Positions 3,145 to 24,333 of a stretch of 29,033 nucleotides of DNA are shown one piece after another. Position 1 is the first letter of the stretch. Each line of letters starts with the position of its first letter. The DNA comes from a virus. A program made the translations under genes and the position numbers. Under the pieces are notes generated by a model. The model ran no database searches, was not told the DNA's origin, and saw nothing but the letters and a program-made list of their open reading frames with translations. The stretch is from positions 1-29,033 of IMG/VR virus record IMGVR_UViG_3300002835_000819; one strand, given 5' to 3'.

Positions 3145-3146
3145 GA

Positions 3147-11068: not shown

Positions 11069-11089
11069 GTGCTGTAGAACTTACGTTAG
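11069..11089 (+). other. attI-like core, copy 1
   Basis: GTGCTGTAGAACTTAC followed by the core GTTAG. The inverted L-type half GTAGAAC, 4-base spacer and R-type GTTAG copy the layout of integron simple sites (attI1, as I recall, has TAAAAC-AAA-GTTAGGC). The 21 bases recur exactly at 14820-14840 and, inverted, at 24272-24292. Cassette 1 of island 1 begins inside it at the G/TT junction (11085/11086). Confidence 0.7.
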
Positions 11090-11595
11090 AGCGCATCAAC
11101 GCCATTGACCAGCGGGCCGCCGACGAATCCAACGAGTGACGGTGCCCATCCGCCCTGCGCCACGCGCAGCCAGCCTTCATAGCCTGCCGTGCTGTCTCCA
11201 CATGCGCTGGCCCCCGTGTCGGTCAGCCATCGCGCCAATTCTTCAGGTGTAGCGAATGCCGGGCTTATCGGCGTTCCCTCGCTGGTGTCCTCGTACATCA
11301 TCAGGTGCGTGCGCTGCTCTACTGGCCAGTCCGGCGTGTAATCATCCCGGTGCGGGCGCTGGCCGCTGTACTGCTCGTAGGTCATGGCGCGAGTCTCTGC
11401 GTCGGTGCAGTGGTCTGGCCGCCATCCGGCCTTCCACTTGGCGCATTCCTCATCCCATTCGTCCACAGCGGGCTGGTAGCGCTGGCCTGGATACAGCGGT
11501 TTGTAACGCTCCACCATGCGGCCCGTGCGCCAGTCCGGCACTTGTTCCTTCGGGTGTTGCCAGTTGGCCGGAACTCGTCTTACTTCTCTTCCCAT
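11086..11595 (-). CDS. Conserved phage protein, cassette gene (island 1)
   Basis: A 169-residue protein (MGREVRRVPANWQHPKEQVP). The central motifs TPDWPVEQRTHLMMYEDTSE and GTPISPAFATPEELARWLTD belong to a protein type widespread in phages of Gram-negative hosts, of unknown function, which I recognise by memory. Its stop codon TAA is the TTA of the cassette's own core site, so the gene fills the cassette exactly. It is transcribed opposite to attC polarity but in line with ninB. A separate ribosome site is weak (AGGAGAG before the ATG). Confidence 0.8.
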   Translation of the reverse strand: MGREVRRVPANWQHPKEQVPDWRTGRMVERYKPLYPGQRYQPAVDEWDEECAKWKAGWRPDHCTDAETRAMTYEQYSGQRPHRDDYTPDWPVEQRTHLMMYEDTSEGTPISPAFATPEELARWLTDTGASACGDSTAGYEGWLRVAQGGWAPSLVGFVGGPLVNGVDAL

Positions 11596-11619
11596 CGTTC
11601 TCTCCTAGTTGAAACAGCG

Positions 11620-11681
11620 CTCTAACACGGCGGTCAACAGCGACCGCGCTGAAGCGCGGCGCGTTACCTTATGCGTTCGGC
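11620..11681 (+). other. attC site 1a
   Basis: R'' CTCTAAC (11620-11626) and R' GTTCGGC (11675-11681). The L arms CGGTCAACAGCGACCGCGC and GCGCGGCGCGTTACC pair with extra bases on the L'' arm. R'' is complementary to the cassette start at 11085, not to R' here, as expected for a site hybrid between neighbouring cassettes. Confidence 0.85.
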
Positions 11682-11917
11682 GTCTTCATCGCGGCATCGA
11701 TCGCAGCGTCAAGATCGTCTGAGCGCAGAGTGTCTCCAATGCCGTCGATTACGCTCCAGTGCTGGCCTCGCCGCAGTAGCCTGTAGCGCTCGGCGTCCAG
11801 TCGCAGTTGGTCCGCTTCTGCCGTAACAATATCCCCGTATTTGTGCTTGCCGGCATGTCCTTTCTCAAGTACACATGCGGACGGTCCGGCAAAGCCCTGC
11901 GATCCACAAAAAGTCAT
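11669..11917 (-). CDS. Small Cys/His phage protein, cassette gene (island 1)
   Basis: An 82-residue protein starting MTFCGSQGFAGPSACVLEKG and continuing HAGKHKY: a Cys-Cys-His-His arrangement that may bind zinc. The second half is helical (LRLDAERYRLLRRGQHW). AAGGAGATAGAAC before the ATG is an excellent ribosome site. The type (C ... CVL..GH.GKH) is familiar from phage genomes, function unknown. The end of the frame overlaps attC 1a by a few codons (APNA stop). Confidence 0.75.
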   Translation of the reverse strand: MTFCGSQGFAGPSACVLEKGHAGKHKYGDIVTAEADQLRLDAERYRLLRRGQHWSVIDGIGDTLRSDDLDAAIDAAMKTPNA

Positions 11918-11941
11918 GTTCTATCTCCTTAGTTACCATAC

Positions 11942-12010
11942 GCCGAACCCATCCATCAACCCGGACGCAAGCGATAAGGCCGCTTGCGCCGGTTATGTCA
12001 AACGTTATCT
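11942..12010 (+). other. attC site 1b, fused to the end of ninB
   Basis: R'' GCCGAAC (11942-11948), R' GTTATCT (12004-12010). Arms TCAACCCGGACGCAAGCG and CGCTTGCGCCGGTTA pair, with extra bases in the L'' arm. R' is phage sequence: it encodes the Gly-Asp-Asn end of NinB. This complete attC is the distal border of island 1. Confidence 0.85.
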
Positions 12011-12396
12011 CCCAATTTCACACCGTGTGATATAGCAAAAGCTGTTGCATACTCGATAAGGCTTGAGCTTCGTTTCTTGCTCATCAGCGCAGTTGATTCC
12101 CGGATGTTCACGAATTCAGACTCTAATCCAGGCACTACCTCTGCTCCTTCTTTTGTAGCTATAGCATGACCAGAAACAAGTAACACCTTCCACTGCGCTG
12201 CTGTTCTCGGCTTACCAGCCCATTGAAGCCCTGACTTGGCTATGTCTCCCACGATGGCATGAAACCGTGCGGACTGTTCTAGGCTTCTAGTCGGTTCAGA
12301 TAGGCGCACAACGTATCCATCAGGAGATGAATCAATGGCGTCCTTCGCAAGCTGTCTAGCCTGTTGATGGGCTAATCTGAAGAATTGTTTAGCCAT
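11998..12396 (-). CDS. ninB: NinB recombination protein, C-terminus altered by cassette insertion
   Basis: A 132-residue protein from MAKQFFRLAHQQ at 12396. Motifs EQSARFHAIVGDIAKSGLQW, GKPRTAAQWKVLLVSGH and EFVNIRESTALMSKKRSSSL are diagnostic of NinB, a ssDNA-binding accessory of lambdoid recombination. It follows the helicase and a 57-residue gene. The last two codons and stop (GTT TGA) lie inside attC 1b. Joining the other side of the island would instead give an ending GDNVSSTAR and about 15 more residues. The insertion therefore replaced the tail without removing the conserved domain. Confidence 0.9.
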   Translation of the reverse strand: MAKQFFRLAHQQARQLAKDAIDSSPDGYVVRLSEPTRSLEQSARFHAIVGDIAKSGLQWAGKPRTAAQWKVLLVSGHAIATKEGAEVVPGLESEFVNIRESTALMSKKRSSSLIEYATAFAISHGVKLGDNV

Positions 12397-12545
12397 GATT
12401 TTTCGTGTTCTTCCGCGATCTTGGCGCATTCCTCGAATGTACCCTTTTCGGCTAAGAGTTCATTGTTGAACCATAGGCGGTAGCCAAGATGCCCATTCAC
12501 CGAGTATTTCCCGATCCGATAGGGGTCAGAGATTACGCCGTACAT
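12372..12545 (-). CDS. Small hypothetical protein before ninB
   Basis: A 57-residue protein beginning MYGVISDPYRIGKYSVNGHL at 12545; the longer frame from 12632 would overlap the helicase and has no ribosome site. It ends with FEECAKIAEEHEKSWLNNSSD split across helix-forming residues. It overlaps ninB by 25 bases. Possibly a small beta-alpha domain; no family recognised. Confidence 0.55.
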   Translation of the reverse strand: MYGVISDPYRIGKYSVNGHLGYRLWFNNELLAEKGTFEECAKIAEEHEKSWLNNSSD

Positions 12546-12562
12546 TGATTTACGCTCCCACT

Positions 12563-13435
12563 TCAAAATTGAACATCGTCTGAAAACCGCATGAAGTCGG
12601 GAGAGTAGAAAAGCCCTATGTTCCCTTCCCATTCCCCATTTCTCTGCTTATCACAGATCAGCAGGCAATCAGGCTCATCAATCAATGCAAGTTTATTGGC
12701 TTCCTTCTTCTTGTTTCTCCATACCGTAATCACGTTGTCGACTTGGTCTGTTATCGTCCCAGTCCCTTTAACGTCCATCTTTCCGGGGGGCGCTAGTTCA
12801 TCCTTTGCCTTCCTCGAATGGGCTACAAGGTGGATGTGCATTCCGGTATCCCTCCCGATTGAGCATATCTGGTCAAGGAAATGCTTTTGGCCGTTGTAGT
12901 CATCTTCTCCAATCCCGCATTTCATCAAACTGTCAATAATGAAATGATCGGCCTTCAATACGTCAGCGCAGTACCTTAGAACGGCAAGCATGGTCTGAGA
13001 CTTCACCGCGCCAACTTGGTCATATAGCCAAAGGTGTTTGTCGGTCCATGTGTGAAACTGCCCAATAGCATCGGCGCTCGGAATCTTCCCGTATTCCTGT
13101 CGGCACATCCTGGCGAGAGTTATGTGCGGCTTCATTTCCATAGAAGCTATGATGATCCTCTGCCCCTGCCGGATGAATCCTAGACACGCCTGACCAAGTA
13201 TCAGGCTTTTACCGTGACCATTCATCCCGCCCCATAGCGTGACCTCGCTCGGCCTGAATCCTATTTTACCCGCTGCCTTTGACCACGGGAGAGACTTACC
13301 ATGATTTATTCCATTCCCGTGGAAGTAGTCAATCACAAGGTCTTTGTATTCGACCGCACTTCTTACCTTGTGTTCCGCCTCTGTTTCATTCAGGTAGGCA
13401 GAGAAATCTATCGTGTCGTTTATGAAGTGTGCCAC
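12563..13435 (-). CDS. DnaB-type replicative helicase (RecA-fold domain)
   Basis: A 290-residue ATPase. Walker A is GGMNGHGKS (residues 69-77), Walker B HFIIDSLMKCG (near residue 165), a Gln/His motif MHIHLVAHSRK (near residue 200), and the sensor-like KGTGTITDQVDNVI. It corresponds to the C-terminal motor domain of DnaB/T7 gp4 helicases without the usual N-terminal domain, so it may act with a separate loader or primase. It overlaps the upstream gene by 16 bases. It unwinds DNA at the phage fork. Confidence 0.85.
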   Translation of the reverse strand: MAHFINDTIDFSAYLNETEAEHKVRSAVEYKDLVIDYFHGNGINHGKSLPWSKAAGKIGFRPSEVTLWGGMNGHGKSLILGQACLGFIRQGQRIIIASMEMKPHITLARMCRQEYGKIPSADAIGQFHTWTDKHLWLYDQVGAVKSQTMLAVLRYCADVLKADHFIIDSLMKCGIGEDDYNGQKHFLDQICSIGRDTGMHIHLVAHSRKAKDELAPPGKMDVKGTGTITDQVDNVITVWRNKKKEANKLALIDEPDCLLICDKQRNGEWEGNIGLFYSPDFMRFSDDVQF

Positions 13436-13779
13436 GTCTTATCCCCGAAGTCTTTTACTCCATGATCCCGATGCCAGAAATAGCCTATGTCACTCCCGTA
13501 ATCAGCGCACATCACAGTTATTTCCTCGGCGTATCCTTTGAGCTTTTCAAGAACGTCAGCAGAAAGCTGGTTCCACGATCCAGAGTACAGGGTTATCTGC
13601 ATATCCTTGAAAGCCCGGAAATCATCATGGGCCACCGACTCATGTACGGTAAGTTCCATATCCTCAAAGTCGTTGATGTATTTCGGACGCTTGTAGGGGC
13701 ATTCAATTGATACAACCAGGCTTCGCGGACGAAGCCCTGCTTTTCTAAGCGTTAGCAAGTGATGAAGTCCTTCGATCAT
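13420..13779 (-). CDS. Replication-region protein of unknown function
   Basis: A 119-residue protein if begun at the ATG at 13779, which overlaps the stop of the DUF1376 gene (ATGA); a longer frame to 13872 would overlap that gene by 97 bases. The sequence (LRPRSLVVSIECPYKRPKYI, then HWHRDHG-like GYFWHRDHGVKDFGD) has Asp and His clusters that could bind metal, but no known motif. Placed between a replication-initiator-like gene and the helicase. Confidence 0.6.
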   Translation of the reverse strand: MIEGLHHLLTLRKAGLRPRSLVVSIECPYKRPKYINDFEDMELTVHESVAHDDFRAFKDMQITLYSGSWNQLSADVLEKLKGYAEEITVMCADYGSDIGYFWHRDHGVKDFGDKTWHTS

Positions 13780-14450: not shown

Positions 14451-14461
14451 TTCACTTTGGG

Positions 14462-14723: not shown

Positions 14724-14803
14724 TTCAACTCCTTGCAGGGTTTATCGGATTGTTTACTGTACTGATTCATTTAATGTCAAAGACTTACAGTTTGTCGATG
14801 GAA
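14724..14803 (-). promoter_or_regulatory. Repeated leader module, copy 2
   Basis: About 115 bases lie between the attI-like core and the ATG at 14723, ending AAACCCTGCAAGG as at 24371-24383. A TTGACA / TAAACA pair with 18-base spacing on the minus strand may be a promoter. Confidence 0.4.
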
Positions 14804-15570
14804 AGGTTATGCAGCACGGGTGCTGTAGAACTTACGTTAGGTGCCTTGGGTTCGCACCGTTTGCTATTCCGTACCACAACCCAAAAACAGTGCGTGTTCT
14901 TGGCGTGGTGCGCCCGTTGCCACCGTCCGCTTTTCAGGTTCCCGCCGCAGGGGTCGCGCTTGATAATCAGGTCACACGGCATCAACCCGGCTTCGCGCAC
15001 CGCCGCGTTGAACAGTTCAAGGTTCCACTGGTATTTGTGGTTGTGGACGTAATCCTTGATCTTGGCGAAAACCAACCCGTCATGCTTCAGCACTCGCTTG
15101 GCTTCGGCCAAAAACGGCGCGTGCAGTTCGCCCACGTTGTCCGCCTTCACGCCCTTACCGAGTCCGTAGTCCTTGCCGTATCGTGCCAAAGACTGAGGGC
15201 TTGCCGCTGCGTCTGGTAGATGCGGCGGGTCATACACCAGAACGTCCACCGTGCCGTCAGCATCAGGCATGTCGTGCCAGTGGGCAACAACATCTGGCCG
15301 CATCGCCGGGTCGCGGTCGTAGTACGCCACCTTTGCGCCGGTCGCGCTGCCTTTCCACATCCTGCGAGCGTTGCAGCAAACATCAATCACCCGCTTCGCC
15401 CTCGGCGCGTAAAACTCAAACATCGCGTCAAGCAGAGCATTGTCCTTGCCAATCCACACAGACTCCAGCCGCTTAAAAGTCGGTTCTGGCGGTACGGCAC
15501 CTAACACGTCGGTCAAGTCGGACGTGCCGCATGTGCCTCCGTCAAACGCTTGCAGTTGTTCCATCTTCAT
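14785..15570 (-). CDS. Class I methyltransferase-like protein (DPPH), cassette gene (island 2)
   Basis: Up to 261 residues; AAGGGAG favours the second ATG (15564). Motif I is RVIDVCCNARRMWK (near residue 80) and the catalytic-type motif IV is VLVYDPPHLP (near residue 128), as in SAM-dependent DNA or small-molecule methyltransferases. Ribosome site and start codon lie in the loop of its own attC (2a), so the N-terminal ~25 residues are attC-encoded. The C-terminus reads through the core into the attI-like site, giving the tail PNVSSTAPVLHNL. Substrate unknown. Confidence 0.8.
   Translation of the reverse strand: MKMEQLQAFDGGTCGTSDLTDVLGAVPPEPTFKRLESVWIGKDNALLDAMFEFYAPRAKRVIDVCCNARRMWKGSATGAKVAYYDRDPAMRPDVVAHWHDMPDADGTVDVLVYDPPHLPDAAASPQSLARYGKDYGLGKGVKADNVGELHAPFLAEAKRVLKHDGLVFAKIKDYVHNHKYQWNLELFNAAVREAGLMPCDLIIKRDPCGGNLKSGRWQRAHHAKNTHCFWVVVRNSKRCEPKAPNVSSTAPVLHNLSIDKL
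14804..14843 (+). other. attI-like site, copy 2 (extended)
   Basis: AGGTTATGCAGC, three variable bases, GGTGCTGTAGAACTTAC, then the core GTTAGGTG. It is 37/40 identical to the inverted copy at 24269-24308. The succession GTTAYGCAGCA, about 20 bases, GTTAGG also resembles attI1 as I remember it. Island 2 begins at the G/TT junction (14836/14837). Confidence 0.7.
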
Positions 15571-15619
15571 CGCTCCCTTTTAGTCCTGTGGCGGCACGCC
15601 GCTTACCTTGGCGTTATGC
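15499..15619 (+). other. attC site 2a (long loop)
   Basis: R'' CACCTAAC (to 15505), R' GTTATGC (15613-15619). Arms GTCAAGTCGGACGTGCCGC and GCGGCACGCCGCTTAC pair well with three extra bases on the L'' side. The roughly 60-base loop contains the ribosome site and start of the methyltransferase gene on the opposite strand. Confidence 0.85.
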
Positions 15620-15910
15620 CGCTTCATACGTCGCCTCGAAGATGTCAGGCTTGCACGGGTACAGTTCTCCCTTCACGCCCTGGATTACCCAGTCTCCCCA
15701 CGAAACCAAGTGCTGCCCTTCGAGCGTGCCAATCGAGAGCGTGCCGTCGCCGGTGCCGGCTTCTGTCGGGTACAGCGATCCGGGCGTTTCGCGCTCAAGT
15801 TGCCAAGCGCGGTGCATCCATTCCGGCCAATCGGCATTGCTGGCCCTGCGTTCTTCGGTCATCTTGAAGGCTTCGATCACTACGGGCTTCTTGCGAAATT
15901 TCAGGTTCAT
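15614..15910 (-). CDS. Conserved phage protein (KFRKKPVVIEAF type), cassette gene (island 2)
   Basis: About 98 residues from MNLKFRKKPVVIEAFKMTEE at 15910, preceded by AAGGAGCAAAAC; a longer frame from 15955 starts at the cassette edge. The C-terminal GVKGELYPCKPDIFEATYEA and the middle HLVSWGDWVIQ are hallmarks of a small protein I recall as very common in phages and prophages, function unknown. The stop TAA is the cassette core triplet. Its phage character shows that cassettes here carry phage genes rather than typical integron cargo. Confidence 0.82.
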   Translation of the reverse strand: MNLKFRKKPVVIEAFKMTEERRASNADWPEWMHRAWQLERETPGSLYPTEAGTGDGTLSIGTLEGQHLVSWGDWVIQGVKGELYPCKPDIFEATYEAA

Positions 15911-15951
15911 GTTTTGCTCCTTGGTTAAAAGTCGGTTCTGGCGGCACGGCT

Positions 15952-16020
15952 GCATAACACGTCATTCAACCGGACGCCTTCGGCCTGCCGGCCTCGTCGC
16001 CGGTTAATTCGGCGTTTGGG
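15952..16020 (+). other. attC site 2b
   Basis: R'' GCATAAC (15952-15958), R' GTTTGGG (16014-16020). Arms TTCAACCGGACGCCTTCGGC and GTCGCCGGTTAA pair around a GC-rich hairpin. Confidence 0.88.
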
Positions 16021-16022
16021 CG

Positions 16023-16262
16023 TCAAAACACCGTCTGGTGCTTTCTCAGCCCCGTTCCACGACAACTATGGCATGTTCCATATCCAAATTCGTCGCAGTC
16101 GTCCCACATTGGGTCATCTACCTCTCGGTAGCCTTCTCCGCCACAATGGGTGCAAGCCCATTCCTCGTCGTCGTATTCGCAGTCATCATCAGTGCCGCCG
16201 CCCAACCCGGCAGTCGAGCGGGACTGCGGTTCATCAGTCTTCGTTTTGTTTTCAGCTTTCAT
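16023..16262 (-). CDS. DnaJ-type zinc-motif protein, cassette gene (island 2)
   Basis: A 79-residue acidic protein with two CxxCxGxG motifs, CTHCGGEG (residues 37-44) and CHSCRGTG (residues 65-72), the pattern of the DnaJ cysteine-rich zinc domain found as small stand-alone phage proteins. The start lies in the loop of attC 2c. The gene is oriented with ninB and against attC polarity. Zinc binding is a safe inference; the partner or function is unknown. Confidence 0.75.
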   Translation of the reverse strand: MKAENKTKTDEPQSRSTAGLGGGTDDDCEYDDEEWACTHCGGEGYREVDDPMWDDCDEFGYGTCHSCRGTGLRKHQTVF

Positions 16263-16291
16263 CGCCGCAGCCCCTGATTTTTGCGTTGGGG
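16200..16291 (+). other. attC site 2c (imperfect)
   Basis: R'' GCCCAAC (16200-16206), R' GTTGGGG (16285-16291). Inner arms GAGCGGGACTGCGG and CCGCAGCCCCTG pair with a bulged A. The loop holds the start of the zinc-motif gene on the other strand. The R''-proximal spacer is atypical, so confidence is lower. Confidence 0.65.
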
Positions 16292-16536
16292 GTGATGCTG
16301 TGGCCGCATCGTTCGCACTTGAGGCAGTCGATCAGTTTCCCCGGCCCTTCTGGCGACATCGTGACAACTGGGCCGCCAGCAAAATCCGGCGATCCTCCGT
16401 AAGTCTGAGCAATCGCCTTGCTTGGCTTCATCGTGCCGCCGCATCTCTGGCAAACCGTGAAGTCGTCGTTGTTGCAGCCGCACGGGCAGTCAGCCCAATG
16501 CGACGGGTTGTAGATGCCGCCACCTTCGTTTGTCAT
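16252..16536 (-). CDS. Multi-cysteine zinc-binding protein, cassette gene (island 2)
   Basis: A 94-residue protein with CPCGC (18-22), CQRCGG (30-35) and CLKCERCGHS (about 72-81): enough ligands for one or two zinc ribbons. It begins MTNEGGGIYNPSHWADC. The last residues (KIRGCGDES) are encoded beyond the cassette border, inside attC 2c, so the tail depends on the neighbouring cassette. The weak ribosome site (GTGAGGA) lies next to R''. I recognise no family. Confidence 0.65.
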   Translation of the reverse strand: MTNEGGGIYNPSHWADCPCGCNNDDFTVCQRCGGTMKPSKAIAQTYGGSPDFAGGPVVTMSPEGPGKLIDCLKCERCGHSITPNAKIRGCGDES

Positions 16537-16543
16537 TCCTCAC

Positions 16544-16611
16544 CCCCAACACTTCCGTCAACCGGAGCCGCGCGATGATGCCGCGCGTCCCGGTTACGTT
16601 CGACGTTAGTT
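16544..16611 (+). other. attC site 2d, border with the HTH gene
   Basis: R'' CCCCAAC (16544-16550), R' GTTAGTT (16605-16611). Arms GTCAACCGGAGCCGCGCG and CGCGCGTCCCGGTTAC pair almost fully. R' includes the stop codon of the phage HTH gene. Confidence 0.88.
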
Positions 16612-16764
16612 TCCAATTTGCTTCGCCCTTTGCGGGGAGACGTTAAGAATTAATCCTATCTCCTTCCACGTTTTAGGCGGCTTCATAGACCGTAAGCCGC
16701 GAACCATCTTGCGACGTTCTTCGGCCTGCTTCTTAACATTCTTTTGGTAAAGATATTTTTCCAT
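16606..16764 (-). CDS. 52-residue HTH phage protein
   Basis: MEKYLYQKNVKKQAEERRKM at the N-terminus and PKTWKEIGLILNVSPQRAKQ near the C-terminus, the latter a sigma-region-4-like helix-turn-helix. Its stop TAA is the core of attC 2d, so island 2 starts exactly at its end. No ribosome site precedes the ATG. A promoter (TTGTCA, 17 bases, TAGCAT) ends 6 bases upstream, so the mRNA is predicted leaderless. Probably a small transcription regulator of the divergent promoter pair. Confidence 0.65.
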   Translation of the reverse strand: MEKYLYQKNVKKQAEERRKMVRGLRSMKPPKTWKEIGLILNVSPQRAKQIGN

Positions 16765-16770
16765 GAACGA

Positions 16771-16799
16771 ATGCTATCACATCAAATAGTTCTTGACAA
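16771..16799 (-). promoter_or_regulatory. Minus-strand promoter overlapping a divergent plus-strand promoter
   Basis: TTGTCA (16794-16799), 17-base spacer, TAGCAT (16771-16776), 6 bases before the HTH gene ATG. Its -35 overlaps the plus-strand -35 (16793-16798) through the shared palindrome TTGACAA. Confidence 0.5.
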
Positions 16800-16820
16800 G
16801 CCCTTTTTATTCTGTAGAAT
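16793..16820 (+). promoter_or_regulatory. Plus-strand sigma70-like promoter for the right-hand operon
   Basis: TTGACA (16793-16798), 16-base spacer, TAGAAT (16815-16820). It would start the operon from 17208 rightward through erf and ssb, with a leader of about 380 bases. Confidence 0.7.
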
Positions 16821-17207
16821 GATGAAACATCAGCACAGCGCATTGACCAAGCAACAACTGGTACTAGCTCCGCTATAAGGCCATAGATCATGCGATCACT
16901 GATAAGCGTCTGATGAAGCGGAAGCAGAAAAACAATTGTGTCACGCTCATTCTGTAGGATGTTTCTGGTTCAGCCTACAGTCTTACCTGGTAACTAGATG
17001 CGGCCATGTTGCGCGGGGGCATGGTCAAAGGTAAGCGGGGCTTCCAAGACTTACGGCCCTGTTAGCCCGTGCCAATTTTAGATAGTTCAGTTAGTGGATC
17101 GAGTTAGCGCGGCGCGTAGTCGCGGTCTAACCAGCGAGATTGGATGGACTGGTTATCCACCTTTTGACTAGCTCGGTCCTCTAACTGCATTACAACAGGA
17201 GAAAGAA
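16821..17207 (+). other. Long hairpin-rich leader without a gene
   Basis: No convincing gene in 387 bases. Hairpins in order: CTGTAGG / CCTACAG (about 16952-16980), GGCCATG / CATGGTC (about 17002-17026), GTAAG / CTTAC (about 17030-17053), TAACCAG / CTGGTTA (about 17128-17156). GTTAGCCC near 17061 is complementary to the R box GGGCTAAC at 18600-18607, but no attC arms surround it. Could be an untranslated regulatory RNA, an antitermination region or decayed cassette sequence. Confidence 0.4.
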
Positions 17208-17432
17208 ATGTCTAAAGAGTACGCAGAAAAGTTTTCCGAATCACTCTTCGTGATGATGAACGGGATCAACAGAGTCCGCGCGGCTGAAGTTCTCGACAAG
17301 ATGGAAATGGATGCACTCAGGGCCAGGTTCGAGGAAGATAATAAACTTGAAGGCCGGAGACTCAACCGCGAAGCCCACGTTGACGACAGGCGGGAAGCTT
17401 CCGAAGTATGGGAGCGGATGCAGGAGCCGTGA
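17208..17432 (+). CDS. Small helical phage protein
   Basis: A 74-residue charged protein (MSKEYAEKFSESLFVMMNGI) predicted helical throughout, with AGGAGAAAGAA before the ATG. It is the first gene after the long leader. Its TGA is followed at once by the candidate border of island 3. No family recognised. Confidence 0.6.
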   Translation: MSKEYAEKFSESLFVMMNGINRVRAAEVLDKMEMDALRARFEEDNKLEGRRLNREAHVDDRREASEVWERMQEP

Positions 17433-17496
17433 TTAACGCAGAGTTTGGCATCCTAGCTATTATGGAGAATAGACATGGATTGGACTGACGTTGAGA
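17431..17496 (-). other. Degenerate attC candidate 3d
   Basis: In gene direction GATTAAC (17431-17437) and GTTGAGA (17490-17496) are 66 bases apart and flank weakly pairing arms (GGCATCC / GGATTGG). The spacing and TTGGACTGACG resemble the other sites, but pairing is poor. Listed because it would be the distal border of island 3 and falls right after a stop codon. Confidence 0.3.
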
Positions 17497-17741
17497 TGGA
17501 ACTTGGCGCAACTGGCCGCGATGATTTGGCCGAGTGGTGCAGCGACGAGGTTGCGAGGCTGACAAAGGAGCGGGACGCTGCGTTTGCTATGAGCCGATGC
17601 GAGTGCTCAAGCGATGAGGCGTGCCGCAACATTTCCAAGTTGCGTGAAGCCCTAGACACGGTATCTAGGGTGAGCAATGACCCGGCGATTGTGGCGTGCG
17701 CAAAGCACGCCCTGTTGGGCCACATGGGTAGTGAACGATGA
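17475..17741 (+). CDS. Small helical protein, cassette gene (island 3)
   Basis: An 88-residue acidic protein (MDWTDVEMELGATGRDDLAE) with a coiled-coil-like middle (DEVARLTKERDAAFAM) and three cysteines in RCECSSDEACRN. It begins inside the degenerate site 3d, like other cassette genes here. GGAGAATAGAC precedes the ATG. Its stop overlaps the next ATG (ATGA at 17738-17741). Coiled-coil phage proteins of this kind are common but functionally unknown. Confidence 0.6.
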   Translation: MDWTDVEMELGATGRDDLAEWCSDEVARLTKERDAAFAMSRCECSSDEACRNISKLREALDTVSRVSNDPAIVACAKHALLGHMGSER

Positions 17742-18010
17742 AACTACCAAAGCAATGGCTGTATTGGGCGCAGAAGGCAGGGTTAAGGCCGGAGCGTAAG
17801 CGAGGACGAGGCAACAAACTTTACCTCGTAGGGAGGTCGCGGAGGTGGCGCGTGAACTGCCACAACGAATTTGAATGTTCCTGCCCGCTAGAACACTTCG
17901 ACAGGTGGGCGAACAGTCGCGGCGCACAGTTGGGCGGAACACCAAAAACGGAAGCAGAATTTTTGGCTTCTGTGCGCGAACTGCGCGAACGGTCGAAGGA
18001 TGCACGATGA
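17738..18010 (+). CDS. Basic small protein, cassette gene (island 3)
   Basis: A 90-residue Arg-rich protein (MKLPKQWLYWAQKAGLRPER) with a central block RRWRVNCHNEFECSCPLEHF DRW and an alternating basic pattern. It might bind nucleic acid. Coupled to the preceding gene by an ATGA overlap, so the two form a two-gene cassette ending just before attC 3c. No family confidently recognised. Confidence 0.6.
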   Translation: MKLPKQWLYWAQKAGLRPERKRGRGNKLYLVGRSRRWRVNCHNEFECSCPLEHFDRWANSRGAQLGGTPKTEAEFLASVRELRERSKDAR

Positions 18011-18011
18011 G

Positions 18012-18133
18012 GGATAACGTGAAGTTAACTGGCGTGCCGCCCACGGACGCCACAAAGGAGCAGAACCATGAATGACACACAGAGCAACAACGAAACATCG
18101 AGCGGCATGTCCGCGTTGGACGACGGGCTAGAT
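18012..18133 (-). other. attC site 3c, core mutated
   Basis: In gene direction the boxes are GGATAAC (18012-18018) and GGCTAGA (18127-18133). The arms GTTAACTGGCGTGCC and GGCATGTCCGCGTTGGAC pair well, so it was a genuine attC, but the core GTT has become GCT. The long loop contains the ribosome site and ATG of the next gene. Confidence 0.6.
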
Positions 18134-18433
18134 GGCTCGGCACGGATTGAGTACAGATACCTGAACATGGACACCGGGCGCTTTCACGAAACGCAGGAGG
18201 CCATGGTGAAATTCCTCGGTAAGGGATCGCTGCTTCGGGCCATCCCGAACTACCAGCACAACCAGTGCTTGATAGCTGGCGGGAGAAAAGAATTCTCGGA
18301 AGCGGCGGCGGTTCTCAAGTGCAAACGTCTGACGGGGATTCTGACTTTCAAGGAGAAAGAACATGAGCAACAAATTCACCGCGATTTACACCGACTCTTG
18401 GATGAGTGGGAGCCATCGCATGACGCTGCCTAA
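18068..18433 (+). CDS. Hypothetical protein, cassette gene (island 3)
   Basis: A 121-residue protein starting in the attC 3c loop (MNDTQSNNETSSGMSALDDG), with AAGGAGCAGAACC before the ATG. The middle (RIEYRYLNMDTGRFHETQEA, then MVKFLGKGSLLRAIPNYQHN) looks like a compact alpha/beta protein. Its last 71 bases overlap the next gene in another frame, which is long for a real overlap. No family recognised. Confidence 0.5.
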   Translation: MNDTQSNNETSSGMSALDDGLDGSARIEYRYLNMDTGRFHETQEAMVKFLGKGSLLRAIPNYQHNQCLIAGGRKEFSEAAAVLKCKRLTGILTFKEKEHEQQIHRDLHRLLDEWEPSHDAA

Positions 18434-18590
18434 AATGAGGCGCACGGAACAGAAGGATGGCGAGACCGTAGCCGACATGCTGCGGCGCGAAGACATCGAA
18501 GACAGCGCCGTGTATCTGTTCCACGGGCACCCGCTGATGCAGGGCGAGGAGCCGCAGGAATACGAGCAGGCATGGCTGAACGCGGCATGA
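18363..18590 (+). CDS. Small acidic protein, cassette gene (island 3)
   Basis: A 75-residue protein (MSNKFTAIYTDSWMSGSHRM) with AAGGAGAAAGAAC before the ATG, a very good ribosome site. The sequence ends YLFHGHPLMQGEEPQEYEQA. It overlaps the upstream gene by 71 bases; if only one is real, the ribosome site favours this one. It resembles small proteins I have seen in phage accessory regions, function unknown. Confidence 0.6.
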   Translation: MSNKFTAIYTDSWMSGSHRMTLPKMRRTEQKDGETVADMLRREDIEDSAVYLFHGHPLMQGEEPQEYEQAWLNAA

Positions 18591-18600
18591 TGGGAAAGAG

Positions 18601-18670
18601 GGCTAACGCAAAAAGTCAGGCGACTGACGCGGCTTTATCGCGGCAGGTCGCCTGCACTGACGGGTTAGCG
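18601..18670 (-). other. attC site 3b
   Basis: Gene-direction boxes GGCTAAC (18601-18607) and GTTAGCG (18664-18670); arms GTCAGGCGACTGACGCGG and GCGGCAGGTCGCCTGCAC form a long stem. Confidence 0.85.
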
Positions 18671-18689
18671 GTTTTTAGGAGCGAGAACG

Positions 18690-18923
18690 ATGGATTTCTT
18701 TTGCAGAAGAACACTTGAAGATGATGGACGCCGCGAGCAGCCGATGCCCGACCGACTGGCTGACATGGAGGCGGCCGGACACAGGCTGGCGCTTGAGCTT
18801 GAGTGCCTGCTGATGGACACACAAGACCTGCCGATACAAAGCCGCTGGTGGAGCACAGCGCTTGATGCTGTAAGCGAGTGGCAAAAATTGTTCCCGTACA
18901 ACGGGCCGAGATTGGGGGACTGA
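18690..18923 (+). CDS. Small conserved phage protein, cassette gene (island 3)
   Basis: A 77-residue protein (MDFFCRRTLEDDGRREQPMP). The core MEAAGHRLALELECLLMDT and SRWWSTALDAVSEWQKL resembles a short helical protein type I recall from phage genomes, function unknown. TAGGAGCGAGAACG precedes the ATG. It ends one base before the PAPS-reductase-like gene, so the two form a two-gene cassette and may act together. Confidence 0.65.
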   Translation: MDFFCRRTLEDDGRREQPMPDRLADMEAAGHRLALELECLLMDTQDLPIQSRWWSTALDAVSEWQKLFPYNGPRLGD

Positions 18924-18924
18924 A

Positions 18925-19668
18925 GTGGACTATGTAATTTCAGCAAGCTACGGCAACGACTCGATGGCGATGATTCGATGGGCCTACGAGCGCGAGCTAA
19001 AGAATGTGGTGGTGGCCTACTGCGACACCGGCTGGGCTGCGCCGGGATGGTGGCAAAAAGTCGGCGCTGGCGAGACGGCGGCAAAGGCGATGGGGTTTGA
19101 GGTTGTGCAGTTAAAGAGCCTTGGAATGCCTGAACTGGTGAGGACGAAGCGCGGATTCCCCGGCAACGGAAAGCAGCAGTTTTGCACCATGCACTTAAAG
19201 GGCGTGCCGTTTCTGCAATGGATTGATGAGGCAGACCCCGATTGCAAAGCAATGGTGATGGTAGGCAAACGCCGCGAAGAAAGCCCAGCGAGAGCGAACA
19301 CCCAGGAATTTGTTTATAACTCGGAGTACCACGGAGGCCGGACGCTCTGGCACCCGCTGTACCTGCACACCGAAGCCGAGCGCGATGCGCTTTTGCAGCG
19401 GGCCGGGATTGAGAAACTGCCGCACCGAAGCAAGGAATGTAGCCCTTGCGTGAACGCGAACCGTGGCGACTTCCTCCGGCTGACACCCGGAGAGATTGAG
19501 CGGGTGAATGATCTTGAGGTTGAGATTGGACGCCCGATGTTTCGCGCCAAGCGGTTCGGGGCGATGGGGATTCACGGCGTAATGGTTTGGGCCAAAGAAG
19601 GCCGCGACCGTGGAGATTTTGAGGACGAAGAGGAATCCTGCTCCGGGCTGTTCGGGTGCGGGACATGA
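18925..19668 (+). CDS. PAPS-reductase/DndC-like PP-loop protein, cassette gene (island 3)
   Basis: A 247-residue protein starting at GTG (GGGGGA upstream). N-terminal ISASYGNDSMAMIRWA is a PP-loop (SxGxDS type) that binds ATP; QQFCTMHLKGVPF, VGKRREESPAR and the Cys-rich ECSPCVNAN with a final CSGLFGC follow the phosphoadenosine-phosphosulfate reductase family, which includes DndC/DptC of DNA phosphorothioation. Phage homologues usually lack Dnd partners and their role is unsettled. Its position beside a DNA methyltransferase cassette makes nucleic-acid modification plausible, not proven. Confidence 0.85.
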   Translation: MDYVISASYGNDSMAMIRWAYERELKNVVVAYCDTGWAAPGWWQKVGAGETAAKAMGFEVVQLKSLGMPELVRTKRGFPGNGKQQFCTMHLKGVPFLQWIDEADPDCKAMVMVGKRREESPARANTQEFVYNSEYHGGRTLWHPLYLHTEAERDALLQRAGIEKLPHRSKECSPCVNANRGDFLRLTPGEIERVNDLEVEIGRPMFRAKRFGAMGIHGVMVWAKEGRDRGDFEDEEESCSGLFGCGT

Positions 19669-19669
19669 C

Positions 19670-19737
19670 CGCTAACGCCTAGCTAACCGGCGCGGGCGGC
19701 TTTATCGCCTGCGTCCGGGTTGAGCGACGTGTTAGCA
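19670..19737 (-). other. attC site 3a
   Basis: Gene-direction boxes CGCTAAC (19670-19676) and GTTAGCA (19731-19737). Arms GCTAACCGGCGCGGGCG and CGCCTGCGTCCGGGTTGAGC pair with two extra bases on one arm. Read on the minus strand, TCAACCCGGACGC and GCCGGTTAGCTAGGCGTTAG closely follow the classic attC arms. Confidence 0.9.
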
Positions 19738-19756
19738 GGCAAACGAAAGGATGATG

Positions 19757-20521
19757 ATGGCTGAGAAAGTGACAATCGGGAATTGCGAACTTTGGCACGG
19801 CGACTGTTTGGAGATACTGCCGACCATGCACAAGGGCGATGCCGACATGCTGCTGACCGACCCGCCCTATGGTGTGGCGTTTGTTGGCCGCGCTGGAGTG
19901 CATGAGGTTCTGCAAAACGACCACAAGGGGTTTGATGTTGCGCCGTACATTGACGCGGCACTGAAGGTCTTGCGGCGCGGCAGGCACGTTTATGTCTTTG
20001 GGCCGCTGGACGTTGCGAAGCACGCGCTTTGCTCTGAGATTGAACTGATTTGGGACAAGGAAATGTTTGGCCTTGGGAATCTCGAAATACCGTGGGGGCC
20101 GCAGCATGAGCGCATTACGTTCGCCATCCACGAAATAAGCAAGGCGAACCGCGACAAGGGGTTTGGTTCTTTGGCCGCAAGGCTTCGCCGTGGCAGCGTG
20201 TTGCGGAGCCTGCGCCCACACAGCGGGCGGGCGAAGTTCCACCCGACAGAAAAGCCGCTGGACATTCTGGCGCAGATGATCGAGAGCAGCACCACGATGG
20301 GCGAGACTGTTCTTGACCCGTTCATGGGGAGCGGCAGCACACTGGTTGCGGCAGTTCTTGAGCGGCGCAAGGCGATAGGGATTGAGATTGACCGGAAGCA
20401 CTTTGACACGGCTTGCCGCCGAGTTGAGGAAGCGCAAAAGCAGGACTGCATGTTTTTCACAGAAGTCGGCGCTGGCGATACGGCGGTGCAGGGCGACATG
20501 CTTTTGCCTGCTAACGTGTGA
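19757..20521 (+). CDS. Beta-class DNA methyltransferase (DPPY), cassette gene (island 3)
   Basis: About 254 residues; three consecutive ATGs (19751-19759), and GAAAGG favours the third. Motif IV MLLTDPPYGV is near residue 35 and motif I with the SAM-binding loop, VLDPFMGSGSTLV, near residue 180; this IV-before-I order marks beta-class N6-adenine or N4-cytosine DNA methyltransferases. No restriction enzyme accompanies it, so self-protection or counter-restriction is likely. The last residues (ANV stop) cross the cassette core into the attI-like site. Confidence 0.9.
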   Translation: MAEKVTIGNCELWHGDCLEILPTMHKGDADMLLTDPPYGVAFVGRAGVHEVLQNDHKGFDVAPYIDAALKVLRRGRHVYVFGPLDVAKHALCSEIELIWDKEMFGLGNLEIPWGPQHERITFAIHEISKANRDKGFGSLAARLRRGSVLRSLRPHSGRAKFHPTEKPLDILAQMIESSTTMGETVLDPFMGSGSTLVAAVLERRKAIGIEIDRKHFDTACRRVEEAQKQDCMFFTEVGAGDTAVQGDMLLPANV

Positions 20522-20531
20522 TATACATCAC
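20511..20531 (-). other. attI-like core, copy 4 (diverged)
   Basis: On the minus strand GTGATGTATATCACAC then GTTAG; 16 of 21 positions match the other three cores. The GTTAG half belongs to the cassette, so the flanking match is 12 of 17. It marks the attI-proximal border of island 3. Confidence 0.5.
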
Positions 20532-20571
20532 GCAATAAATTTGTAAATTAACTTGACTTGGAGAATATTAC

Positions 20572-20775: not shown

Positions 20776-20978
20776 TGGAACCGTTCGACATGGAACACAT
20801 CATGGATGAGGCTGATTACAACGCCAGAATGCAACAGGAATCCGAGGCCGAACTTCACTTCGCCCTGCTGGATGCCATCGAACAAGCTAAACAGATTGGA
20901 CTGCCGAAAGACTTGGTTCTCTTGTTGTGCTACGCAACCGGGGTGAATTCGGATAACTTCTACAAGGAAGAAGCATGA
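20775..20978 (+). CDS. Small acidic protein before erf
   Basis: A 67-residue protein from the ATG at 20775 (MEPFDMEHIMDEADYNARMQ), chosen over 20748 because the stop of the preceding gene overlaps it and GGGGGTAA is well placed. Coupled to erf by an ATGA overlap (20975-20978). Function unknown. Confidence 0.6.
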   Translation: MEPFDMEHIMDEADYNARMQQESEAELHFALLDAIEQAKQIGLPKDLVLLLCYATGVNSDNFYKEEA

Positions 20979-21661: not shown

Positions 21662-21663
21662 TC

Positions 21664-22092
21664 ATGGCATCTGTAAATAAAGCAATCATCGTCGGATCGC
21701 TCGGCAAAGACCCTGATATTCGCTACACAGCAGACGGCAGCGCAATTGCCAACATTTCTGTTGCAACTTCCGAATCATGGAAAGACAAGGCGAGTGGAGA
21801 AAAGAAGGAACAGACAGAATGGCACCGCGTCAGCTTTTTCGGAAAGCTCGCAGAAGTCTGCGGGCAATATCTGAAAAAAGGGTCACTGGTCTATATCGAA
21901 GGTTCTATCCACACTCGAAAGTGGAAAGACAAGGAGGGCCAGGATCGCTATACCACCGAGATTCGTGGAGACAAGATGCAAATGCTTGGCGGGAAGGGTG
22001 GAACTCGGGAAGAACCAGCGGAACCGGAACAGCATGATAATAAGCCTTCCTCTGGTGGATTCAATGATTTCGAGAACGACATTCCCTTCTGA
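21664..22092 (+). CDS. ssb: Single-stranded DNA-binding protein
   Basis: A 142-residue SSB: OB-fold N-terminus ([56 protein letters not shown]), a disordered Gly/Pro/Gln linker and the acidic tip NDFENDIPF that recruits DNA-metabolism proteins. Partners the ERF recombinase upstream. Island 4 starts 34 bases after its stop. Confidence 0.95.
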
Positions 22093-22126
22093 CATTGCCC
22101 GTTGTGTATCTGGTCATGCTTATTTG

Positions 22127-22189
22127 GGATAACGTGGAGTTCAGCGGGGCGCAGCGCAGCGGAGCGTCCGCTGGAACGCAGGGTTAGAC
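22127..22189 (-). other. attC site 4d, distal border of island 4
   Basis: Gene-direction boxes GGATAAC (22127-22133) and GTTAGAC (22183-22189). On the minus strand the left arm TGCGTTCCAGCGGACGC and right arm CCCGCTGAACTCCACGTTA form a classic attC, close in appearance to soil-integron sites. Flanking phage sequence follows ssb. Confidence 0.9.
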
Positions 22190-22207
22190 AACATTTTGGA
22201 GAACAGC

Positions 22208-22606
22208 ATGAAATGGTGGAGAGTGTTTTTTAAGGGCGGAGATGAGGATAGGCCGCATGAGGAAGTGTTCGGCGTAAAGGCTGAAGATATTGATGGCGCA
22301 AGAGCGCAGGCTCTAAAAGAAATGCGGGAAGAATTCATGATTCGCTACCCCGAAATTTACCGAATCGAAGAAAACGGCGATGACATCGTGACCGACAACA
22401 TGACCGACGAAGACTTTGCAGCAGCGGTTGAGGCGACATGCAGCCCGACCGCCAAAGAGTTGGACAGGCTTCGCGCCATCGAAGCGGCGGCACGAAATCT
22501 GATAGCAGTAAAGGGACGACACCATTCAGAGATTGCAATGTGCCGGCTCATTGAGGCATTGACGCACAACGCAGAAATAACCGGCCGCGCCAGCGGTCCG
22601 GGTTGA
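22208..22606 (+). CDS. Hypothetical protein, cassette gene (island 4)
   Basis: A 132-residue protein from MKWWRVFFKGGDEDRPHEEV at 22208, with GGAGAACAGC just upstream. The first half looks like a small alpha/beta domain; the second (CSPTAKELDRLRAIEAAARN) is helical. The frame continues through attC 4c and stops inside it, so the tail HNAEITGRASGPG is attC-encoded. No family recognised. Confidence 0.65.
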   Translation: MKWWRVFFKGGDEDRPHEEVFGVKAEDIDGARAQALKEMREEFMIRYPEIYRIEENGDDIVTDNMTDEDFAAAVEATCSPTAKELDRLRAIEAAARNLIAVKGRHHSEIAMCRLIEALTHNAEITGRASGPG

Positions 22607-22620
22607 TTGACGGGTTAGCA
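22564..22620 (-). other. attC site 4c
   Basis: Gene-direction boxes GCACAAC (22564-22570) and GTTAGCA (22614-22620), 57 bases, the shortest site here. Arms AATAACCGGCC and GGTCCGGGTTGATT pair. Confidence 0.88.
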
Positions 22621-22660
22621 GCCCGCCCGTTGAAGGCGCTGCGATTTTGGAGAACCACAG

Positions 22661-22999
22661 ATGCGAATTCATACCGACCACAACGGCGTTGCCGTGAATG
22701 CCATTTCCTCCCTGAGCGACGGCACCAACGTCGAAGGCCACCACTACCAAGTCCTTGCCGGACCGAAGATGCTGACTGTTGAATTTCAGATTGGCGGCGT
22801 TGCCGACAACGGCGTCAATGGCGTGACCAACGAAGCGTTGCTGGCGATCTTGATTCACCGGACGAAGTTTCTCGACAGCAAGTTCGGGTGCGACGAGAAC
22901 AAGCGGGCCATCCAACACATGGAAGATGCGTTGTGCAACCTTGAAGTGCGATCGGCGCGGCGGATCGTTCGTGGCGTTGAAGGCAAGGAACTGGCGTAA
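22661..22999 (+). CDS. Small phage protein, possible Acb2/Tad1-like sponge, cassette gene (island 4)
   Basis: A 112-residue protein (MRIHTDHNGVAVNAISSLSD). The C-terminal half, TNEALLAILIHRTKFLDSKF, CDENKRAIQHMEDALCNLEV and ARRIVRGVEGKE, follows the helical-hairpin pattern of a very common phage protein (..ALLA..IDR....F.C.EN..A...LE.AL..L..R...R..RGVEG..). I think that type is related to Acb2/Tad1 anti-CBASS/anti-Thoeris sponges, but only from memory. TTGGAGAACCACAG precedes the ATG. Confidence 0.6.
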   Translation: MRIHTDHNGVAVNAISSLSDGTNVEGHHYQVLAGPKMLTVEFQIGGVADNGVNGVTNEALLAILIHRTKFLDSKFGCDENKRAIQHMEDALCNLEVRSARRIVRGVEGKELA

Positions 23000-23029
23000 C
23001 ACTGGCTGCCGGTGCAAGTTTGGGCCGGC

Positions 23030-23132
23030 TGCTAACGTAGAGTTGAGCGCCGGGGAACGGCGCGAGGATAAACTATGATCGAAGAGAAAAACGACCACGC
23101 CGTTACCCGTGCGCTCGAACGCCGGGTTATGC
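23030..23132 (-). other. attC site 4b (long loop)
   Basis: Gene-direction boxes TGCTAAC (23030-23036) and GTTATGC (23126-23132). Arms GTTGAGCGCCGG and GTGCGCTCGAACGCCGG pair. The loop carries GAGG and the ATG of the methyltransferase-like gene. Confidence 0.78.
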
Positions 23133-23629
23133 CCCTGCCTCCGGTTTTGGATGTGTGTTGTGGGCCGCGTGGAATGTGGTTCAACAAGGCCGACAAAAGA
23201 GCGATGTTTGTAGATAGGCGAAGAGAGACTCATATTTTTGACCATCCAAGCGGGTATCGTACCGATGTCATAGACCCTGACGAATTGGCGGATTTTACAA
23301 ATCTACCATTCCCTGATGAAGTATTTTGGCTTGTGGTGATGGATCCGCCACATATAACACAGACTGCAAACACGGGACGCATAGTTAAACGCTACGGAAT
23401 GTTAGAAGGTGATTGGCGCGAGATGTTGCGTGTCGGTTTTTTAGAGTGCTTTCGAGTACTGAAGCCAAACGGAACTTTCATATTCAAATGGAATGAGTGC
23501 CGCATACCTATCAAAGAGATTTTGCCATTAGCACCGTTCCCGCCTCTGTTTGGGCATAAATCAGGGAAAGCAATGCAAACGCATTGGGTTACTTTCATGA
23601 AGCCCGGTGAAGATGATGATGGGGCATAA
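23075..23629 (+). CDS. Class I methyltransferase-like protein (DPPH), cassette gene (island 4)
   Basis: A 184-residue protein whose ribosome site (GAGG) and ATG sit in the loop of attC 4b; an internal ATG on the cassette border (23129) is an alternative. Motif I is VLDVCCGPRGMWF, motif IV LVVMDPPHITQ, followed by GFLECFRVLKPNGTFIFKWN and the ending KAMQTHWVTFMK. This SAM-dependent methyltransferase-like family is common in phages and prophages; substrate unknown. It shares the DPPH motif with the island 2 protein but is clearly a different gene. Confidence 0.85.
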   Translation: MIEEKNDHAVTRALERRVMPLPPVLDVCCGPRGMWFNKADKRAMFVDRRRETHIFDHPSGYRTDVIDPDELADFTNLPFPDEVFWLVVMDPPHITQTANTGRIVKRYGMLEGDWREMLRVGFLECFRVLKPNGTFIFKWNECRIPIKEILPLAPFPPLFGHKSGKAMQTHWVTFMKPGEDDDGA

Positions 23630-23686
23630 CGCCAAGGTAAGCGGCGGCGGTGCTTTTCCGCCGTCCGCTTGACCGACGTGTTAGGT
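23624..23686 (-). other. attC site 4a
   Basis: Gene-direction boxes GCATAAC (23624-23630) and GTTAGGT (23680-23686). Arms GGTAAGCGGCGGCGG and CCGCCGTCCGCTTGACC give a near-perfect stem. It is the short-loop relative of attC 2a, sharing GGTAAGCGGCG and CTTGACCGACGTGTTAGGTG. Confidence 0.92.
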
Positions 23687-23693
23687 GACGGCA

Positions 23694-24095
23694 ATGGCAT
23701 ACGCGAACAAGGACGACTACAAGAAGTGGTACATGGCGAACCGAGAGCGTTTGATTGCGAAGGCGCGGGCCGCAGAGTTGGCGAACCCAGAGAAAGCCGC
23801 ACAGAAGAAACGCGAGTATTTGGAACGCCACCCGGACAAGCGCAAGGAAACAAACCGCCGTTATATGAAGAAGCCGGAAGTGATGGCAAAGCAGCGCGAA
23901 CTAAGAGCAACACCAGAACGCAGGGCGAAAGCAAAGCAGTTGCGCGAACACTATCGGGACACGCTACACGATTGTTTTGTGCGCCGATGCTTGGCGCAGC
24001 ACTTGAAGATCAAGGGCAGCGAGATACCGCAAACGCTGGTTGATGCACACCGAGAACTGATGAGACTGAAAAGGGCACTGAATGAAAAACTGTGA
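23694..24095 (+). CDS. Basic repeat-rich phage protein, cassette gene (island 4)
   Basis: A 133-residue protein from MAYANKDDYKKWYMANRERL at 23694. The N-terminal 85 residues are imperfect Lys/Arg/Glu-rich helical repeats (YLERHPDKRKETNRRYMKKP); the C-terminal DTLHDCFVRRCLAQ and GSEIPQTLVDAHRELMRL is a conserved ending I recall from many phage proteins of unknown function. It overlaps the next gene by 14 bases. Possibly DNA-binding. Confidence 0.72.
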   Translation: MAYANKDDYKKWYMANRERLIAKARAAELANPEKAAQKKREYLERHPDKRKETNRRYMKKPEVMAKQRELRATPERRAKAKQLREHYRDTLHDCFVRRCLAQHLKIKGSEIPQTLVDAHRELMRLKRALNEKL

Positions 24096-24333
24096 CGAAC
24101 TACGGGCAGAACTTGCCATGACTTTCGAGAGATTGAAGGCGGGAGAAATAAAACCAGGTGAAGCCGCTGAACTAGCCAACTTGGCCGGGAAGATGATCGG
24201 TAGCGCAAAGGTGCAGGTTGAGTATTACGCGCTGCGGAAAGAATCACCGCGCATCGAGTGGCTTGAGTCACCTAACGTAAGTTCTACAGCACCATCGCTG
24301 CATAACCTAGACACAAATCAAGGTAACTTGTAA
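24082..24333 (+). CDS. Conserved small phage protein with attI-encoded tail, cassette gene (island 4)
   Basis: An 83-residue protein (MKNCDELRAELAMTFERLKA). The core GEIKPGEAAELANLAGKMIG and VQVEYYALRKE is a small helical protein I recall as often encoded beside the preceding type in phages. The frame runs through the cassette core into the attI-like site, adding PNVSSTAPSLHNL and ending at 24333 outside the cassette. The island 2 methyltransferase gains the same tail. Confidence 0.75.
   Translation: MKNCDELRAELAMTFERLKAGEIKPGEAAELANLAGKMIGSAKVQVEYYALRKESPRIEWLESPNVSSTAPSLHNLDTNQGNL
24269..24308 (-). other. attI-like site, copy 3 (extended)
   Basis: Inverted copy of 14804-14843, 37 of 40 bases identical. 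The cassette joins at 24275/24276. It marks the attI-proximal border of island 4. Confidence 0.7.

Follow-up and report, generated by a model that had tools for sequence, protein, structure and literature searches.

Integrons are known as bacterial devices. This report deals with four integron-type cassette arrays that lie within a phage genome, and in which the cassette genes run against the direction of their attC recombination sites. The stretch of DNA analysed (the window) is an entire IMG/VR virus record (IMGVR_UViG_3300002835_000819) of 29,033 bases; it is classed as linear and is thus perhaps a fragment. Its phage proteins comprise portal and terminase proteins, a DnaB-like helicase, a primosomal protein, NinB, NinG, an Erf-like protein and a single-stranded DNA-binding protein (SSB). 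The original prediction, made from the letters alone, had placed the arrays in islands at 11069–12010, 14804–16611, 17431–20531 and 22127–24308, with about 18 genes riding in them. Counting by hand indeed gives 18 open reading frames (ORFs; 2 + 4 + 7 + 5), which include three DNA methyltransferases, a PAPS-reductase-like protein and a weak HNH match.

attC sites and cassette genes of the four arrays

The attC sites were located with a covariance model trained on 31 bacterial attC sequences (29 from arrays beside bacterial intI genes, two from plasmid R388 and none from the window). With filters off, this model finds 12 window sites with E ≤ 6.9e-6, six per strand and all inside the four predicted islands. 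The 13th-ranked match, at 18012–18133 on the minus strand, has an E value of 0.65, and the 12 sites score far above background. A home-made attC scanner gave 11 matches in the window, of which ten fall within the islands; 40 dinucleotide shuffles yielded 0.58 matches on average. The scanner overlooked the sites at 11620 and 16200, and assigned the wrong strand to that at 18601. Rfam searches at gathering thresholds returned no match in the window, and DNA folding of six window attC sites and one attI-like site gave no consistent strand preference.

Cassettes are bounded by R boxes, and it had been predicted that the box at one end of each cassette is the reverse complement of that at its other end, over up to 13 bases. 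This is borne out in ten of 12 cassettes, where start box and reverse-complemented end box share a prefix of 7–13 bases. The full series of prefixes is 10, 9, 10, 7, 3, 11, 13, 9, 10, 10, 10 and 3; their sum of 105 compares with a permutation mean of 52.4, and none of 20,000 permutations reached it. With at least two attC sites and no integrase nearby, the window falls under the definition of an attC cluster lacking an integrase (CALIN), an assignment that is provisional, the record being a fragment.

In array 1, attC sites on the plus strand lie at 11620–11681 (33.1 bits, E 4.9e-6) and, adjoining ninB at the upstream end, at 11942–12010 (33.8 bits, E 3.3e-6). Both genes are on the minus strand: the one at 11086–11595 has no Pfam, NCBIfam or PHROG match and has relatives of 34–46% amino acid identity in loci L072 and L252 (L and G numbers are labels of compared loci and records), and that at 11669–11917 has a 52% relative in L201. 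Array 2 has four plus-strand attC sites, at 15499–15619 (34.1 bits, E 2.8e-6), 15952–16020 (43.8 bits, E 1.4e-8), 16200–16291 (divergent; 32.4 bits, E 6.9e-6) and, at the promoter-proximal end, 16544–16611 (41.4 bits, E 5.3e-8). Its minus-strand genes encode a DNA methyltransferase (14785–15570, phrog_24333), a member of a phage family of unknown function (15614–15955, phrog_419), a weakly supported product with no match in the compared loci (16023–16262) and a zinc-ribbon-like protein (16252–16536) with weak Pfam matches below cut-off. Two divergent sigma-70-like promoters are found between arrays 2 and 3 (16771–16820), the plus-strand one matching at 11 of 12 positions; the search of the stretch found three such promoters, with 1.2 expected. 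Given this divergent pair, arrays 2 and 3 would be promoter-proximal in two operons.

Array 3 starts with four plus-strand ORFs (17475–18590, from the ORF list), followed on the same strand by a gene with relatives in L237 and L007 (18690–18923), the PAPS-reductase-like gene (18925–19668; PF01507, phrog_424) and an N6/N4 DNA methylase gene (19751–20521; PF01555, E 2e-21). Its attC sites are on the minus strand, at 18601–18670 (38.1 bits, E 3.1e-7) and 19670–19737 (43.7 bits, E 1.5e-8). Array 4 opens with the best-scoring site of all, 22127–22189 (minus strand, 57.4 bits, E 9e-12), which adjoins ssb at the upstream end and scores 11.0 bits on the opposite strand; further minus-strand sites lie at 22564–22620 (39.6 bits, E 1.4e-7), 23030–23132 (34.2 bits, E 2.7e-6) and 23624–23686 (55.6 bits, E 2.4e-11). 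The genes are again on the plus strand: 22196–22606 (no PHROG match), 22661–22999 (a phage family of unknown function, phrog_2428), 23129–23629 (DNA methyltransferase; phrog_954, E 3e-58), 23685–24095 (weak HNH match, E 8.8e-4) and 24082–24333, the second gene of the latter's cassette, whose reading frame continues through an attI-like site. The start at 23129 is an internal one, picked since the cassette boundary lies at 23126.

Gene polarity in phage and bacterial cassettes

The attC sites of arrays 1 and 2 are thus on the plus strand and their genes on the minus strand, while in arrays 3 and 4 the strands are exchanged; in all four, the genes are antiparallel to attC. The canonical arrangement, in which gene and attC share one direction, is not found in the window. 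The home-made scanner scored five of six window cassettes as reversed, the sixth spanning 16605–18607 owing to the mis-stranded site. In the reference plasmid R388, both attC sites share their strand with the cassette genes; a mere error of convention was considered as the source of the reversal and ruled out, as R388 confirms the convention. The original prediction had missed the reversal, which is the most unusual feature of the locus, as well as the attI-like sites described below.

Viral loci for comparison (IMG/VR) were chosen either by one attC subtype pattern with a degenerate half-site (103 stretches, 80 of which were taken as loci) or by likeness to the integron integrase (IntI) of record G061. 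On account of this choice, the polarity ratios hold for these chosen viral loci and do not describe all phages. A codon model applied to the cassettes of both sets, duplicates removed, called 164 reversed and three canonical (23 with no clear gene, two ambiguous); for arrays beside bacterial intI genes (33 loci, 14 with scored cassettes), it called 39 canonical and none reversed (17 none, five ambiguous). Covariance-model sites were taken from the best 150 of 339 viral matches and from all 99 bacterial matches: 90 cassettes in 40 viral loci gave 78 reversed, none canonical, ten without a call and two ambiguous, against 47 canonical, two reversed, 16 without a call and six ambiguous for 71 cassettes in 17 bacterial loci. 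Counted by locus, reversed to canonical is 38:0 in viruses (best 150 of 339 matches) and 1:15 in bacteria (Fisher p 1.8e-12).

Since long ORFs from these very loci had served to train the codon model, a Pfam test was added. Sampled ORFs matched 18 families on the strand opposite to attC (70 ORFs) and one family, with one member, on the same strand (70 ORFs). The opposite-strand families include N6/N4, C5 and Dam methylases, Mom, Lar and NinX. The viral loci called canonical by the codon model are L152, L219 and L242; one of the three is doubtful because the scanner mis-strands sites (two in L219). One bacterial cassette (L282) is called reversed when the scanner cut is relaxed.

Two loci deserve separate mention. 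L122 (278–928) has an array that is reversed except for an apparently canonical gene at its edge, a 196-residue ORF running into the attC at 869–928. A contig from a Propionivibrio metagenome-assembled genome (L257, 1–8000) carries reversed cassettes with methylase, PAPS-reductase-like and HNH-like genes, and is perhaps a prophage.

attI-like sites, phage integrases and shared cassettes

An identical 21-nt site occurs in three exact copies, at 11069–11089 (plus), 14820–14840 (plus) and 24272–24292 (minus); none of 100 shuffles reproduced this. Arrays 1, 2 and 4, three of the four, carry it at the end that lies downstream of the genes. In array 1 the core ends at a GTTAG junction, while in array 2 it is part of a larger element with an adjoining hairpin (14804–14846, plus), 91% identical over 43 nt to the element at the end of array 4 (24266–24308, minus); the small hairpin is common to both. 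Translated in frame, the site forms the ends of two unrelated cassette genes (14785–14846 and 24266–24333), which share an NVSSTAP-LHNL tail.

A conserved site is also found upstream of viral intI genes, its core GAATTTAAGTT being present in 18 of 38 loci; the core in the window is GAACTTACGTT. Best matches of the window 21-mer in the viral intI upstream regions range from 10 to 16 of 21 positions with a mean of 13.4, significantly higher than in the corresponding bacterial regions (mean 12.0; p 0.0016). The likeness of the window core to phage attI is real but modest. No match to the 21-mer was found in 84,980 species genomes, so that no host attI was identified. A 19-mer search of viral contigs returned only the phage's own record and the unrelated L001, which is taken as chance. 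Among other attC loci the attI-like motif has few matches, in L169 and L185, both from records with intI.

The window itself has no PF00589 or TIGR02249 match, and hence does not show the intI beside attI of a complete integron. Across 27 records, the window, G001 and G002 included, TIGR02249 gave eight weak matches and none over cut-off. In 46 records from attC loci, 11 exceeded the cut-off, ten of them bacterial and one viral (G061); in 15 further viral records none did. G061 is a 38-kb record with a terminase gene, in which reversed cassettes are followed by an attI-like site and then by a co-directional integron integrase. With its IntI as query, 47 viral loci with IntI relatives were found, of which five were left out as partial. 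In 25 of the remaining 42, attC sites lie within 7 kb upstream of intI, and in all 25 their strand points away from intI. The cassettes there are 26 reversed and none canonical, their genes reading toward intI.

Of the 40 viral rows in an IntI tree that also has 33 bacterial ones, 31 fall in one clade (support 98/90). Two further viral loci were left out of the tree, one for a stop and one for its length, as were bacterial rows with a wrong frame (one) or without an open frame as read (six). Several records place these integrases in phage surroundings. In L302 (1704–10963), array and intI are inserted between phage genes, in the order terminase, array, intI, portal, protease; L320 and L341 have tail proteins, and L303 and L313 are situated close to phage integrases. 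A phrog_2 terminase was found in eight of 32 viral intI records, phrog_2 being the only terminase family searched. Nine records of GenBank-derived phages match this IntI at E ≤ 1e-30, none at more than 57% identity.

Other phage records contain cassettes of the window at 84–96% identity. The first cassette of array 2, with the methyltransferase gene, shares 95.9% identity with L224 over 785 nt that extend from GTTAGG up to the following R box, the flanks being unrelated; its match to L181 (92.0%) likewise ends within a few bases of the R boxes on both sides. The second cassette of array 2 (phrog_419) recurs in L153 and L221 at 84–85% nucleotide identity. In array 4, the cassette of the gene at 23685 is 91.4% identical to L183, the match stopping on the right at the R box and on the left at the edge of the locus. 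In L321, a viral locus with intI, the PAPS-reductase-like gene has a counterpart of 86.3% nucleotide identity, and there the match extends from the gene start to an R box on the right. Empty sites had been proposed as a further check. No clean one was found; in L241, homologues of ninB, orf66 and ninG (pieces of 70, 55 and 74% amino acid identity) adjoin without island 1, an absence at the level of the locus that is not base-exact. The same relative has another reversed array upstream of ninB. Taken with the attC model and the R-box matching, the sharing of cassettes with R-box ends and the absence of island 1 from a relative support the reading of the islands as integron-type cassette arrays.

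Relation to known integrons and origin of the reversed arrays

Several arrays within one phage had been regarded as an arrangement not previously established. One correction is that attC arrays in phages as such are already published: passages of Qi et al. (2023; PMC9892861) describe attC clusters (CALINs) and a few complete integrons in phages, and report that five of six phage attC sites were recombined with attI1 by IntI1. Like the window, these published CALINs have attC arrays without an adjacent integrase, and methyltransferase cassettes. Those passages do not discuss how genes are oriented relative to attC, nor a phage IntI clade or the occurrence of several attI-like sites in one phage. 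There, cassettes of the phages TJE1 and PH101 are given as running in one direction and the attC of P12002L as divergent. By the polarity test used here, TJE1 is canonical, PH101 has two weak sites (E 0.012 and 0.019) antiparallel to its genes, and P12002L has no match to the attC model. Four minus-strand attC sites (E 6e-9 to 5e-4) lie under plus-strand genes in L294 (MW202573, 2069–3738), which is thus reversed. Given this record and the antiparallel weak sites of PH101, reversed arrays are already present in public records. At the DNA level, megablast of window positions 1–25000 found no match among GenBank phages.

Two temperate phages with complete integrons, from the same paper, carry intI in their records. 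In Shewanella phage M16-3 the annotated genes beside intI run away from it and two model matches lie on the gene strand, so that it is canonical; in Vibrio phage Va_90-11-286_p16 most neighbouring genes run away from intI, and no attC model match was found. The IntI proteins of both are 45% identical to that of L302. Virus Rctr41k (KX853513; L392) has an annotated integrase-like protein (4680–5678) that is an IntI relative (44.5%) with co-directional upstream genes, and no attC was found in it by the model. Sedentary chromosomal and class 1 integrons likewise have an integrase of the IntI family, the attC architecture and attI beside intI, but their cassette genes are canonical and divergent from intI. 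In Treponema integrons, as described in passages of PMC3607928, intI and cassette genes are co-directional, as in the phages; there, however, it is intI that is flipped and transcribed toward attI, whereas in the phages intI is directed away from attI and the flipped part is the cassettes. The reversed layout was therefore rejected as an instance of the Treponema type. While attC clusters in phages are already known, literature searches confined to open-licence papers brought up no report of a reversed-cassette class.

The arrays of the window are probably integron cassette arrays adapted to phages: anchored at attI-like sites, with flipped genes, moved by IntI in trans and drawn from a shared pool of counter-defence genes. 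Judged by sequence, the integron has a genuine and widespread variant in phages, marked by reversed cassettes, attI-like landing sites and a clade of phage IntI. Several observations weigh against this picture. Two overlapping records of the same phage type, 3300044613_001899 (identical across the compared parts) and 3300044613_000158 (99.96% to window 1–6596, and reaching past the left end of the window), show no cassette turnover. A tyrosine recombinase family match is absent from the window and 24 related records. R-box matching fails in two of the 12 cassettes, at about 16013–16203 and 22183–22570. Array 3 lacks the attI-like core at its downstream end (20505–20545, minus), and its first four ORFs have no clear attC among them. 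The resemblance of the window core to phage attI reaches 16 of 21 positions at best, with a bacterial best of 15 of 21. Nine of the 40 viral IntI sequences are scattered outside the main clade, and the viral label needs five changes on the tree. In L333 the upstream neighbour of intI has the opposite direction. Lastly, of 191 viral cassettes, 48 have their longest ORF on the canonical strand and 143 on the opposite one; we take these 48 ORFs to be GC-rich antisense frames.

Could the window simply hold an ordinary attC cluster without integrase, acquired by chance from a host chromosomal integron? Phage attC clusters are known (passages of PMC9892861), and the same attC subtype does occur in beta- and gammaproteobacteria (13 stretches in 84,980 species genomes), with intI over the family cut-off in ten of 12 bacterial assemblies checked. 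A host-derived cluster is expected to be canonical, as bacterial cassettes are by both counts (39:0 and 47:2), whereas the window and the other viral loci are reversed. Moreover, reversed cassettes are present in at least three of the 13 genome stretches, which may be prophages, L257 having phage-type genes, and the gene content of the arrays is phage-like. Such an origin is accordingly judged quite unlikely. Still less credit is given to the idea that the attC-like hairpins are mainly RNA elements before genes, such as leader or processing structures. The reversed polarity does put a hairpin just upstream of each gene, but the conservation fits a bacterial attC model and is strand-specific (57.4 against 11.0 bits at 22127–22189), R boxes pair within each cassette, and cassettes recur with R-box ends.

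A more serious contender, though itself improbable, is that an integrase built the arrays once and that they now move by homologous recombination only, possibly via the Erf-like annealing protein that the window phage encodes. The lack of an integrase on the window sequence and the two degenerate cassettes would suit such fossil arrays. They are harder to reconcile with common cassettes that end at R boxes amid unrelated flanks (at both ends in L224), with the intact state of most R boxes, and with the open intI genes of other phages of the class.

If the arrays are indeed phage-adapted and mobile, the following mechanism can be envisaged. In each array, an attI-like site would serve as the anchor, placed at the end of a phage operon that is farthest from the promoter. 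Recombination of attI with attC would fix the attC sites in the orientation common to all integrons, directed away from attI; the flipped cassette genes would then read toward attI, and the phage operon, entering from the far end, would transcribe the array. An integron integrase would excise and insert cassettes at the GTT of the R boxes, new ones entering at the promoter-distal end, and transcription would expose the recombinogenic strand. As no tyrosine recombinase is seen in the window phage, the integrase would act in trans, supplied by a co-infecting or resident phage or by a host integron. The methyltransferase-rich cassettes would represent a common phage pool, probably serving counter-defence.

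A broader proposal, to which we lean with some reserve, is that phages may run an integron economy of their own. It would comprise a phage-specific IntI clade, phage attI sites and a separate reversed pool with an excess of anti-restriction genes, which unrelated phages trade with one another and plug into their operons. Since flipped genes would be antisense to the array promoter in bacterial integrons, the flip would insulate the phage pool from these; it would also make the recombinogenic attC strand the non-template strand. Phages without intI, the window phage among them, would use multiple attI-like landing sites and borrow an integrase.

Were this true, phages would operate a cassette-trading system in parallel to that of bacteria, likely shuffling counter-defence genes such as methyltransferases. 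The polarity of gene against attC would provide a simple rule for separating phage-adapted from bacterial cassettes, and would open to testing by what route phages acquire anti-restriction genes and whether phage and bacterial integrons exchange cassettes.

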